A DNA stretch of 64,000 bases, taken from NCBI RefSeq assembly GCF_019923745.1, contig NZ_JAANOG010000001.1, positions 310,001-374,000 of the forward strand, read 5' to 3'. The first letter of the stretch is position 1. Each line of letters starts with the position of its first letter. The translations under genes and the position numbers were made by a program. Of this stretch, positions 3,132 to 7,897 are shown in pieces. This DNA comes from Aquirufa aurantiipilula (GTDB lineage: Bacteria; Bacteroidota; Bacteroidia; Cytophagales; Spirosomataceae). The notes below the pieces were generated by a model. That model did not search any database and was not told the origin of the DNA. It worked only from the letters and a program-made list of their open reading frames with translations.

Positions 3132-4763
3132 TTACATCATGCCACCCATTCCGCCTCCGCCAGGTCCATGACCATGAGCAGGTTCAGCAGCTGGTTTATC
3201 AGCAATGACACATTCTGTAGTTAATAATAATCCTGCGATAGATGCAGCATTTTCTAAAGCCAAACGAGTTACTTTAGTTGGGTCAATAATACCCGCCGCA
3301 ATCATATTCTCGTATTTGTCTTCACGTGCATTGTATCCGAAGTCATCTTTTCCTGCCTTAACAGCATTGATAACAACAGAACCTTCACCACCTGCATTAG
3401 AAACGATAGTACGTAAAGGAGATTCTACTGCTTGACGAATGATATTAATACCCGTATTTTGGTCTTCGTTTTCGCCAGTCAAGGTATCTAATGCACTGAT
3501 AGCACGAATTAAAGCAACACCACCACCAGCTACGATTCCTTCTTCTACAGCAGCTCTAGTAGCGTGCAAAGCATCATCCACACGATCTTTCTTTTCTTTC
3601 ATTTCAACTTCAGTAGCAGCTCCAATGTAAAGGATAGCCACACCACCTGAAAGTTTTGCTAAACGCTCTTGTAATTTTTCACGATCATAATCTGAAGTCG
3701 TGTTTTCAATTTGCGCTTTGATTTGATTTACACGATTCTCGATATCGTCTTTAGAACCATTTCCATTAACAACTGTTGTGTTGTCTTTGTCAATGATTAC
3801 TTTCTCAGCTTGTCCAAGGTATTCCAAAGTAGCATTTTCTAATTTGAATCCTCTTTCTTCAGCGATAACAGTACCACCTGTTAAGATAGCGATGTCTTCT
3901 AACATAGCTTTTCTACGGTCACCAAAACCAGGAGCTTTAACAGCAGCTACTTTCAGAGCACCACGGATTTTGTTAACTACTAAAGTAGCAAGAGCCTCAC
4001 CATCAACATCTTCTGAGATGATTAACAATGGACGGCCAGTTTGTGCAACTGCTTCCAATACTGGAAGTAATTCTTTCATAGAAGAAACTTTCTTTTCAGA
4101 AATCAAAATGAAAGGTTTTTCTAATTCCACTTCCATTTTGTCAGTGTTAGTCACAAAATACGCAGATAAATATCCACGGTCAAATTGCATACCTTCTACT
4201 GTTTTTACTTCTGTCTCAGTACCACGTGCCTCTTCAACAGTGATAACACCTTCACGACCAACTTTTTCCATTGCTGAAGAAATCATTTGACCGATTTCAA
4301 CATCATTGTTCGCTGAGATAGTAGCTACTTGAGCTATTTCAGTAGATGTAGTGATAGGACGGGATTGAGTTCTCAAGTTACCAACGATAGCCTCAACAGC
4401 TTTCTCGATACCACGTTTCAAATCCATTGGATTTGCACCAGCAGCTACGTTCTTAGAACCAATGGTATAAATTGATTGTGCTAAAACAGTAGCAGTAGTT
4501 GTACCATCACCTGCTTGATCTGCTGTTTTGGAAGCTACTTCTTTTACTAATTGAGCACCCATGTTTTCCACAGCGTCCTCTAATTCAATTTCTTTTGCTA
4601 CAGATACACCATCTTTAGTAATAGAAGGGGATCCAAATTTTTTATCAATGATAACATTACGTCCTTTAGGTCCTAATGTTACTTTTACGGCGTTCGCAAG
4701 GGTATCAACCCCTCTTTTCATTTTTTCTCTCGCCTCGGTGTCAAAATATAGTTCTTTTGCCAT
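3132..4763 (-). CDS. groL: Chaperonin GroEL (60 kDa)
   Basis: GroEL forms the double heptameric ring that folds cytosolic proteins in an ATP-dependent cycle with GroES. The 543-residue length, the N-terminal equatorial segment, the nucleotide-binding GDGTTT motif (residues 85-90), the apical domain, and the Gly/Met-rich C-terminal tail ending GGMGGMM are all canonical. It lies 46 bp downstream of groS on the same strand, forming the usual groS-groL operon, and ends just before a strong terminator. A candidate sigma-54 promoter lies upstream of groS. No key residue seems to be missing. Confidence 0.99.
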
Positions 4764-4809
4764 TTTGTTAAATAAATTTTACTGGTTGAAATATTTTAAA
4801 GTATGAAAA

Positions 4810-5088
4810 CTATAAAACTGCAAAAATGTCAGACTCACGCATGATTAAATAATCTTTTCCATCGATAGTGATCTCAGTTCCAGAATATTTACCATACAAT
4901 ACAGAGTCACCTACATTTACAGTGATAGGCTCATCTTTTTTGCCATTTCCTACGGCAACAATGGTACCTTTTTGTGGTTTCTCTTTAGCAGTATCAGGGA
5001 TAATGATACCAAAAGCAGTTTTTTCTTCAGCTTGAGCAGGCTCAACAACAACCCGATCTGCTAAGGGCTTGATACTTAATTTTGACAT
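4810..5088 (-). CDS. groS: Co-chaperonin GroES (10 kDa)
   Basis: GroES is the heptameric lid of the GroEL folding chamber. The protein has 92 residues, a normal length, with the opening strand [12 protein letters not shown], the mobile loop TAFGIIIPD (about 24-32) that docks on GroEL, and the roof-loop and C-terminal strand region ([12 protein letters not shown]). It is the first gene of the groS-groL pair. Its 133-bp upstream region holds a stem-loop, a sigma-54-like promoter and CTGACA repeats, described separately. Confidence 0.99.
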
Positions 5089-5120
5089 AATAATATAGAT
5101 TTTAAGTTATTAACATATAA

Positions 5121-5145
5121 AAAGTCCTTATCATCTAAGGACTTT
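5121..5145 (-). terminator. Stem-loop between secG and groS (terminator or 5'-leader hairpin)
   Basis: AAAGTCCTTA and TAAGGACTTT form a perfect ten-base-pair stem with a five-base loop. Read on the minus strand it ends in a short T run, so it can act as a modest terminator for transcripts coming from secG. It also coincides with the start point predicted for the sigma-54-like promoter at 5155-5171, so it could instead form the very 5' end of the groS mRNA. It is not a CIRCE element: the sequence lacks TTAGCACTC and GAGTGCTAA. Confidence 0.5.
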
Positions 5146-5154
5146 CCATTTATC

Positions 5155-5171
5155 AGCATGATGTGTGCCAA
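5155..5171 (-). promoter_or_regulatory. Candidate sigma-54 (RpoN) promoter for groS-groL
   Basis: The minus strand reads TTGGCACACATCATGCT. It carries the -24 GG and -12 GC dinucleotides at the exact ten-base spacing required by sigma-54, with TGGCAC intact and ATGC in place of the preferred TTGC. The predicted start lies near 5144, about 56 bp upstream of the groS ATG. An orphan sigma-54 activator is encoded about 1.4 kb upstream on the same strand (6587-7897). The match is seen directly; its use as a promoter is inferred. Confidence 0.55.
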
Positions 5172-5190
5172 AAAAATTAAGCTGTAAAAT

Positions 5191-5223
5191 TGTCAGTTAT
5201 TCGGCAAGTAATGTCAGTCTGAC
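5191..5223. promoter_or_regulatory. Repeated TGTCAGT half-sites and dyad upstream of groS
   Basis: TGTCAGT occurs twice with a 21-bp period (5191-5197 and 5212-5218), which places the copies on the same face of the helix. The second copy is part of the perfect dyad GTCAG-T-CTGAC (5213-5223), which reaches into the secG stop codon. The sites sit about 20-55 bp upstream of the sigma-54-like promoter, a position suitable for a DNA-bound activator. Related dyads occur upstream of miaB. Confidence 0.4.
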
Positions 5224-5549
5224 TATTTAGCTGGTGCAGCAGGGCTAGGAGCAGGGGCAGCTGGTAATGTTTTACCGGCAGCTTTTTCCACATTCACAGA
5301 CTGGGTAGCATCTGTAGTTCCTGAAGAAAGAGTGAAATTAGTTAATAAAACTAATACCAAGATACTGATGGAAAAACCCCAAGTTAATTGTTCTACTAAA
5401 TCTCCTGTTTTTTGTACTCCAAACATTTGAGTAGCGCCTGCAGAAGAAAATTCTCCACTAATACCACCACCTTTAGGATTTTGAACTAAAATCAAGATGA
5501 TTAGAAGTGCTGAAAAAAGAACTATAAGAGAAATTAATACGGTGAACAT
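5223..5549 (-). CDS. secG: Preprotein translocase subunit SecG
   Basis: SecG is the small accessory subunit of the SecYEG protein-conducting channel in the inner membrane. The 108-residue protein shows the standard plan: a first transmembrane helix (about 3-23), the conserved cytoplasmic loop QNPKGGGISGEF with the downstream Phe-Gly segment, and a second helix (about 56-75). A low-complexity Ala/Pro tail (PAPSPAAPAK) follows, a common extension in Bacteroidota. It follows a TPR-like gene by 7 bp on the same strand and precedes groS. Confidence 0.95.
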   Translation of the reverse strand: MFTVLISLIVLFSALLIILILVQNPKGGGISGEFSSAGATQMFGVQKTGDLVEQLTWGFSISILVLVLLTNFTLSSGTTDATQSVNVEKAAGKTLPAAPAPSPAAPAK

Positions 5550-5556
5550 CGTTTAT

Positions 5557-6099
5557 TTAAATTAATTTATGTTTCAATTCGGAAATTCGAGATGCAAAGT
5601 AAAGGCTTTTTTCAGGTTTAATCAAACTTAATTTTTCATACATCTCAATTGCTCTTTCATATTTTTCTTGTCGCTCCAAAATTTTGGCAAAAGTTTCAGA
5701 TACAGGAATTACATTTTTAAGTTCAGCTAAATCCAAAACATCTGTGTCTTCATCTGAAACATGCTTTTTAGGCCGAGCTATACTTGGTAAGTTTTGTAAA
5801 AAATCATCAATGACCTGCATTTGTTCGGTAACATCAGGAATCACCGTCTTAAAACTCTCTAATTCGACATATGGTGCAGCCATCTCTTCAATATCAAAGA
5901 TGGATTCAAAATAATGCTTTCTAGAAGTGGATTGTAATGCAATCTTTTTTTGCTGGTTTGGATTGAATTTTTCATTCCAAAACAATAAATAGAAATAAGG
6001 ATATGATTCTTTGTCGGCATCAAACGTGTGCTGTAGACTCAAATTACTTCGATCTATTTTATTTAAAAGAAACCATAAATCTTGTGCCTTATTTTCCAT
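5557..6099 (-). CDS. Conserved hypothetical protein with C-terminal TPR-like repeat
   Basis: This 180-residue protein has no signal peptide or membrane segment, so it is probably cytoplasmic. The first half is unrecognised. The C-terminal 50 residues (ETFAKILERQEKYERAIEMY, then LSLIKPEKSLYFASRISELK) match the helix-turn-helix pattern of one tetratricopeptide repeat, a protein-interaction module. It lies 3 bp from the lptE stop and 7 bp from secG, so it is almost certainly part of the same transcript. Its position between LPS-transport and secretion genes suggests an envelope-related role, but no function can be assigned. Confidence 0.8.
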   Translation of the reverse strand: MENKAQDLWFLLNKIDRSNLSLQHTFDADKESYPYFYLLFWNEKFNPNQQKKIALQSTSRKHYFESIFDIEEMAAPYVELESFKTVIPDVTEQMQVIDDFLQNLPSIARPKKHVSDEDTDVLDLAELKNVIPVSETFAKILERQEKYERAIEMYEKLSLIKPEKSLYFASRISELKHKLI

Positions 6100-6102
6100 G
6101 CT

Positions 6103-6609
6103 TTACCAGTCTCCAGCAATTTTATTAAATAAATCTAAGATTATTTGATCCACTAATTTAGGAATCAATGTTTTCTCAACCTGATTTAAAGTTTGATTTT
6201 GAGGAAAATCTTGATAAAACGAAAATTCCTGATCAAAGTTTTTGTTCTCATCTAGTCGATTAGTCAATCTAAATTGTATTCGGAGAGTCAAACGATTTAA
6301 ACCAGCTTTATCGTCAGATGTAGGAGCTTGTGGGCTTAATTCATATCCAACGATTGTGCCTTCCAACAATAAATCAGGTGCCTGAGTGGTTAGTTTGAGA
6401 GATGTATTTCGTTGAAAATATTCCTTTAATCGCTCGTTTACATCTAAACTCAAATTAGCAGGTCCTCCAGCTGTTTCCATGCGGATATTACTTATCTGGA
6501 TGGTTTTTAACTCAGGAGATAGACTAGCTCCCTTAAAACTATAACAACCACTAAAAAGTGGTAAAAAACCAATAAGTACAAAAAGCCTAGGCAATATCTT
6601 CCAGATCAT
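6103..6609 (-). CDS. lptE: LptE-family LPS-assembly lipoprotein
   Basis: LptE is the outer-membrane lipoprotein that plugs the LptD barrel in the last step of lipopolysaccharide export. The 168-residue product has a lipoprotein signal peptide with the lipobox LFSGC and the acylated cysteine at residue 22. The mature part is a compact alpha/beta domain with the motifs typical of Bacteroidota LptE (a YSFKGASL start, a central DLLLEGTIVGYELSPQAP region, and a C-terminal helix with LVDQIILDLFNKIAGDW). Its first 23 bases overlap the end of the upstream regulator gene, indicating translational coupling. Confidence 0.88.
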   Translation of the reverse strand: MIWKILPRLFVLIGFLPLFSGCYSFKGASLSPELKTIQISNIRMETAGGPANLSLDVNERLKEYFQRNTSLKLTTQAPDLLLEGTIVGYELSPQAPTSDDKAGLNRLTLRIQFRLTNRLDENKNFDQEFSFYQDFPQNQTLNQVEKTLIPKLVDQIILDLFNKIAGDW

Positions 6610-7897
6610 ATTGTTTAATTTTTCGATACAAGGTTCTTTCCGAGATTCCTAAATCTTTAGCAGCGTATTTACGCTTATTACGGTTTTTCTTTAATGCACG
6701 GATAATGATTTCCTTTTCTTGTTTTTCAAGTGACAAAGTGACATCTTGAACCTGAGCACTTACATCTTCAAAATTAATATCTTCTTCCATGTTGGAATTG
6801 GATATTGGATGAATCTCAATAGGATTGGGATTGACTTCAACAACACTTGGAGTAGAAGGAAGTGTTAAATTCTTTTGTAGATCGGAGAATTCAGGTTTAA
6901 TGTCTTCGAAGATCGACATGTTATTAGAAATAATATCATAAGCATTGGTATTTCCAGACTCAATGACTTTCAAGAGTATTTTCTTTAACTCAGTAACATC
7001 TCGCTTTAAATCAAACAAGATCTTATAAAGTATTTCCCTTTCGTTAATACCTTCAGGACTGGTAAAAAAATCCCCTTTAATAACAGATGAATTGATTTTC
7101 GGCTCATTGAATTCCAAATAATACTGAAGCTTAACATCATCTACTATTCGATCTCCAACCTCCAAGACGGAAATTTGCTCGGCTAAATTTTTCAACTGAC
7201 GAATATTTCCTGGAAAACGCTGTTTTTGAAGCAATTCCTTGGCTTCACGTGTCAACATAATCGGTTTTACGCGATGTAACTCGGAAAAGTCCGTGGTGAA
7301 TTTTCTGAAAAGTAATTCAATATCATCTCCACGTTCTCTCAGAGGCGGCACATAAATTGGTACGGTACAAAGTCGGTAATATAAATCTTCTCTGAACTTA
7401 CCAGATGTTATAGCATCTTGTAAATTAACATTGGTAGCAGCAACCACGCGGGTATTAGTCTTTTGAACTTTGGATGAACCAACACGGTAAAATTCTCCAT
7501 TTTCTAAGACACGCAATAGTCTAGCTTGCGTCCCCAATGGCATTTCAGCTATTTCATCTAAAAAGATTGTTCCTCCATCTGTAACCTCAAAATATCCTTT
7601 TCGAGCTTCTATAGCACCTGTGAATGAACCTTTTTCATGCCCAAATAATTCAGAATCAATGGTTCCTTCGGGAATAGCTCCACAGTTAACTGCTATGAAT
7701 TGGCCATGTTTTCTTTTGGATAAGGAGTGAATAATTTTGGAAAATGATTCTTTTCCAGATCCACTTTCTCCTGTAATCAGCACAGTCATGTCAGTGGGTG
7801 CAACTTGCTCCGCAACTGAAATAGCACGCAATAGGGCAGAAGAGTTACCTATTATTCCAAAGCGCGCTTTAATGGCATTCAGATGACTTGATTCCAT
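6587..7897 (-). CDS. Sigma-54-dependent transcriptional activator (AAA+ and Fis-type HTH)
   Basis: This 436-residue enhancer-binding protein uses ATP hydrolysis to open promoters bound by RNA polymerase with sigma-54. The AAA+ domain starts almost at the N-terminus: Walker A GESGSGKE (43-50), the sigma-54 contact loop GSFTGA (90-95, with Ser in place of the usual Ala), Walker B TIFLDEI (about 110-116), FREDLYYRL and PPLRERGDDI. A variable linker follows (about 260-390), then a Fis-type helix-turn-helix (RKYAAKDLGISERTLYRKIK). There is no receiver or other N-terminal sensor domain, so the input signal is unknown. It is one base from miaB and overlaps lptE. A sigma-54-like promoter lies upstream of groS in the same cluster. 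Confidence 0.96.
   Translation of the reverse strand: MESSHLNAIKARFGIIGNSSALLRAISVAEQVAPTDMTVLITGESGSGKESFSKIIHSLSKRKHGQFIAVNCGAIPEGTIDSELFGHEKGSFTGAIEARKGYFEVTDGGTIFLDEIAEMPLGTQARLLRVLENGEFYRVGSSKVQKTNTRVVAATNVNLQDAITSGKFREDLYYRLCTVPIYVPPLRERGDDIELLFRKFTTDFSELHRVKPIMLTREAKELLQKQRFPGNIRQLKNLAEQISVLEVGDRIVDDVKLQYYLEFNEPKINSSVIKGDFFTSPEGINEREILYKILFDLKRDVTELKKILLKVIESGNTNAYDIISNNMSIFEDIKPEFSDLQKNLTLPSTPSVVEVNPNPIEIHPISNSNMEEDINFEDVSAQVQDVTLSLEKQEKEIIIRALKKNRNKRKYAAKDLGISERTLYRKIKQYDLEDIA

Follow-up and report, generated by a model that had tools for sequence, protein, structure and literature searches.

Gene order and putative promoter element

The window, a stretch of 64,000 nucleotides from the 3.08-Mb genome assembly of Aquirufa aurantiipilula (99.99% complete), carries on its minus strand the gene order bEBP, lptE, a gene for a 180-aa protein, secG, groS and groL. 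The bEBP gene, encoding a sigma-54 activator, lies four genes upstream of groS. The features considered here are:

3132–4763, minus strand: groL (Cpn60; PF00118, E = 9e-74)
4810–5088, minus strand: groS (Cpn10; PF00166, E = 5e-33)
5121–5145, minus strand: stem-loop AAAGTCCTTA-GATGA-TAAGGACTTT, at the predicted 5′ end of the mRNA (+1 about 5144), supported by folding against shuffles
5156–5171, minus strand: putative sigma-54 (−24/−12) promoter TTGGCACACATCATGC of groS-groL, read directly, with GG at 5169–5168 and GC at 5157–5156
5182–5196, minus strand: candidate enhancer site 2, CTGACAATTTTACAG, reading TGACA-ATT-TTACA (one mismatch), ~20 bp upstream of the −24 element
5212–5224, minus strand: candidate enhancer site 1, AGTCAGACTGACA, one mismatch to TGNCA-N3-TGNCA, overlapping the secG stop codon
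5223–5549, minus strand: secG (PF03840), immediately upstream of groS and on the same strand
6587–7897, minus strand: sole sigma-54 activator (bEBP) of the genome, AAA+ with GSFTGA and Fis-type HTH, the presumed activator of groS-groL

The 180-aa protein between lptE and secG (5557–6099, minus strand) had no Pfam match. The last 23 bases of the bEBP gene are shared with the beginning of lptE (6587–6609, minus strand), which suggests that translation of the activator is coupled to that of lptE, a gene of outer-membrane assembly.

In front of groS, the minus strand reads TTGGCACACATCATGCT from 5171 to 5155, on the same strand as groS and groL. An initial annotation had described GG and GC at the spacing of a −24/−12 promoter on this strand, and direct reading of 5171–5156 confirmed it: ten bases separate them (GG-N10-GC), which is the exact spacing. 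From the GC of the −12 element there were 67 bases to the groS ATG. The predicted +1, at about 5144, is twelve bases past the C of the −12 element and 56 bases 5′ of the ATG, matching the ~56 bp given earlier. The GC at −12 is present here, but a strict GC is no rule in Bacteroidota, where we found TGA in 52%, TGC in 31% and TGT in 17%.

Conservation of the promoter motif

Bare GG-N10-GC was rejected as evidence. It occurred 187 times in the window, with 158 ± 12 expected, and because this is near chance, the case for a promoter must rest on conservation. The longer pattern TTGGCAY-N6-TGM had two matches in the window (0.58 expected) and 51 in the whole genome, versus 11 for a backward control. 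Almost all of the 51 were intragenic, and only those at groS and gyrA were intergenic with a gene following. A whole-genome regulon from the −24/−12 pattern alone was dropped for this reason.

The initial annotation had proposed a comparison of related groS upstream regions. TGGCAY-N6-YG was found within 200 bp upstream of groS in 65 of 80 Bacteroidota loci, the full motif being absent in the other 15. Dinucleotide shuffles of the 80 loci gave a mean of 0.73 and a maximum of 3 matches, and the opposite strand gave 4; the loci are related by descent, for which the shuffles, controlling composition, do not correct. Only a spacing of 6 stood out (65 loci, versus 3–9 at other spacings), in a test that, like that of the dyad below, used the locus set where the motifs were first seen, with the same-genus set and dnaK as partly independent checks. 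The phylum consensus was (T)TGGCAY-N6-(T/C)G(A/C/T). Within the genus, TGGCAY-N6-TG was kept at all 30 groS loci, with drifting flanking bases. The loss in close relatives that had been named as an argument against the promoter was thus not seen.

RpoN and its single activator

Sigma-54 control had been proposed on the condition that the genome carries rpoN, and it does, in one copy (PF04552, E = 8e-52). The “orphan activator” noted just upstream was borne out as well, and the genome encodes no other sigma-54 activator. It has an AAA+ domain (PF00158, E = 1.5e-67, residues 15–181), in which the GAFTGA-type loop reads GSFTGA, and an HTH_8 domain at residues 389–430. A domain search of the protein found no N-terminal sensory domain, so that its abundance or a partner protein probably determines how active it is. 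PF00158 had five matches in the genome: the bEBP in the window scored 229 bits and the other four 20–32 bits, two of these looking like ClpB and a ClpC-type protein. With a single bEBP in the genome, there is only one possible activator for any sigma-54 promoter here.

In searches at E ≤ 1e-20, the bEBP was single copy in nine of ten same-genus genomes, the own one included; the tenth had two. Of the 68 loci with enough flank, 38 had a bEBP gene in the same orientation as groS and 1.6–4.6 kb upstream of it. All 38 linked loci carried an R[TS]LYRK recognition helix, and this helix (SERTLYRK) was nearly invariant.

RpoN is usually associated with the control of nitrogen, flagella or the cell exterior. 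Its gene was detected in 388 of 396 Bacteroidia genomes, and this near-universal presence, even at 0.5 Mb, is in line with a central function in protein quality control. In the 0.5-Mb genome, rpoN and one bEBP are retained and groS still has TGGCATAAAAAATGA along with TGTCAG, which makes it a useful minimal case of a sigma-54 regulon. As a natural experiment, the eight assemblies without rpoN were mostly uninformative: all were fragmented, several had rpoN-bearing relatives, and several still carried the motif and the bEBP. In one Bacteroidia assembly with no detected rpoN, a CIRCE inverted repeat (one mismatch) stands before groS in place of the sigma-54 motif; control may have switched there, or the contig may be foreign.

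Candidate enhancer, predicted 5′ stem-loop and possible further targets

An unbiased hexamer count upstream of the promoter recovered CTGACA/TGTCAG in 45 of 65 loci, with 2.5 expected. The half-sites pair as a 13-bp dyad, TGNCA-N3-TGNCA, which was exact in 34 of the 65 phylum loci (0.1 expected) and strongest at a spacer of 3. Exact dyads were found in 20 of 23 Flavobacteriales loci versus 14 of 42 others. Allowing up to one mismatch, 27 of 29 same-genus loci had it, against 0.9 expected. We regard this dyad as a candidate enhancer for the upstream bEBP.

The predicted +1 falls one base inside the stem-loop at 5145–5121, which has a stem of 10 pairs and −11 kcal/mol. The region from −1 to +32 folded better than its shuffles in 23 distinct sequences of the genus (mean z −2.4), whereas that of 65 other Bacteroidota did not (mean z −0.21). 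The stems of different subclades of the genus shared little sequence, and the structure was kept. This suggests a 5′-terminal mRNA stem-loop specific to the genus, and the conservation of the fold from −1 to +32 supports indirectly the predicted start near 5144. Taken as a whole, the initial 85 nt of the predicted transcript had just a modest folding advantage over shuffles (z −1.5), and Rfam had no match in 4700–5600.

Upstream of dnaK, the genome has TGACAATATGTCA and TGGCATATTCCTTG, ending ~32 nt before the ATG, and the arrangement TGACAATATGTCA...TGGCAY...CCTTG was present in this and four other genomes of the genus; the dyad TGNCA-N3-TGNCA was present at dnaK too. At grpE we found a variant match, TTGGCTTATGATTTGT, with CTGTCAT upstream. 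No −24/−12 motif was found at clpB of this genome. The intergenic match before gyrA (contig C51, 69959–69974) consists of TTGGCATAATTAATGA and a TGACA half-site, ~100 bp before the start; if real, it would tie supercoiling to the same regulon.

Alternative explanations

It is very improbable that most groS-groL transcription comes from the secG operon by readthrough, or from a sigma-A promoter, and that the −24/−12 sequence is incidental. Bare GG-N10-GC is indeed common by chance, and secG, encoded on the same strand, ends 134 bp before groS, an arrangement in which readthrough could also feed groS. Yet the motif does not vary within the genus and is tied to one spacing across the phylum, and groES of Flavobacterium psychrophilum starts at a sigma-54-type motif (PMC9723704). 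Further, TAnnTTTG, the −7 element of Bacteroidota sigma-A, which the initial annotation had named as speaking against RpoN, was found neither in the secG-groS gap of the window nor in the 134 nt preceding groS at any of 30 same-genus loci. A CIRCE element (TTAGCACTC-N9-GAGTGCTAA) was not found in the secG-groS gap either, and at groS of the 80 phylum loci there was no good match, the best having 5 mismatches in 18.

Two parts of the picture are more exposed to other readings. The promoter may be real and the dyads may serve another regulator, for example a repressor, which we consider improbable. The nearest TGNCA half-site is centered at about −48, often at −41 to −45, which is close for a looping activator and near the position of the polymerase, and binding of the bEBP to the dyad is a prediction. 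On the other hand, the genome has a single bEBP with a Fis-type HTH, the recognition helix SERTLYRK and the dyad are both nearly invariant, and the dyad recurs at dnaK alongside a −24/−12 element. For the stem-loop, a role as terminator or attenuator of the secG operon, in place of a 5′ mRNA structure, is somewhat less improbable, although we still find it unlikely. Here the stability of the 10-pair stem (−11 kcal/mol) and the TTTTTAT directly following it in this species are to be set against the other subclades of the genus, which keep the stem and not the T-run, and against the terminator scan, which did not call it. A strong terminator at this place would also halt the groS-groL transcript itself.

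Proposed regulation and comparison with known systems

Very probably, groS-groL, the operon of the essential folding machine GroES-GroEL, is switched on by RpoN together with its single activator, in a wiring conserved through the phylum. As a whole, the sequence data are best explained by a working sigma-54 promoter of groS-groL that is opened by the orphan bEBP, to which we give a probability of about 0.86. RpoN-RNA polymerase would sit on TTGGCAC/TGC and stay closed until activated. The bEBP (6587–7897), at TGNCA-N3-TGNCA just upstream, would hydrolyze ATP and open the promoter, so that transcription would begin near 5144 with the stem-loop at the start of the mRNA. Further targets of the same bEBP would be dnaK and probably grpE-dnaJ. 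All of this is read from sequence: the motif with its conservation and spacing, the single rpoN and bEBP, the enrichment of the dyad and its copy at dnaK are observed, and we infer the promoter activity, the bEBP binding site, the start site and the inducing signal.

A wider reading, for which we see about even chances, extends this across Bacteroidota. The sensor-less bEBP of the miaB-bEBP-lptE-secG-groSL neighborhood would be the master activator of heat-shock chaperones, acting at a promoter-proximal TGNCA-N3-TGNCA. In this lineage, where it would be the only activator left to RpoN, sigma-54 would in effect have turned into the sigma factor of heat shock, with groSL mRNA carrying a lineage-specific 5′ stem-loop. 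Chaperone control is poorly described in Bacteroidota, a major gut and environmental phylum.

Elsewhere, the same groESL operon is targeted by HrcA/CIRCE and sigma-32 control. The control proposed here differs from those systems in using an activator-dependent sigma factor, and RpoN with the bEBP would take the place of sigma-32 or HrcA in controlling the chaperones of the lineage.

In computed sigma-54 regulons, a chaperone cluster was enriched in Bacteroidota, RpoN control of groES, groEL, dnaK and grpE was predicted across the phylum, and groES was stated to be sigma-54-dependent in Bacteroides thetaiotaomicron; in the parts of that study considered here, no activator or enhancer site was assigned to the cluster (PMC12316311, 2025). 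The closest system is that of F. psychrophilum, in which sigma-54-type starts were mapped at groES-groEL, lon, dnaK, grpE-dnaJ, htpG and clpB (PMC9723704, 2021). Because of this mapping, sigma-54 control of groES-groEL is of an already known kind: the RpoN control of the chaperonin suggested in the initial annotation is supported, but the idea is not new. The SM4 promoters of F. psychrophilum share with our locus the sigma factor, the promoter type and the target operon, and the genes for a bEBP and LptE are paired there as well, ~3.3 kb from groES (PMC9723704). Its clpB has an SM4 promoter, whereas clpB here is without the motif.

F. psychrophilum has three activators, suggested possibly to serve different clusters and none of them assigned (PMC9723704), versus one here. 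Which of the three drives the chaperone promoters was left open there, and a single-activator genome answers this by elimination. The activator assignment, the enhancer dyad, which supplies a candidate DNA site for the activator, and the 5′ stem-loop are what we propose in addition; we did not find them in the main texts of the open-licence PMC papers searched. Like the PspF-type activators of Escherichia coli, whose chains it matched, the bEBP combines AAA+ and HTH with no N-terminal sensory domain; it differs from them by ~130 residues between the AAA+ lid and the HTH.
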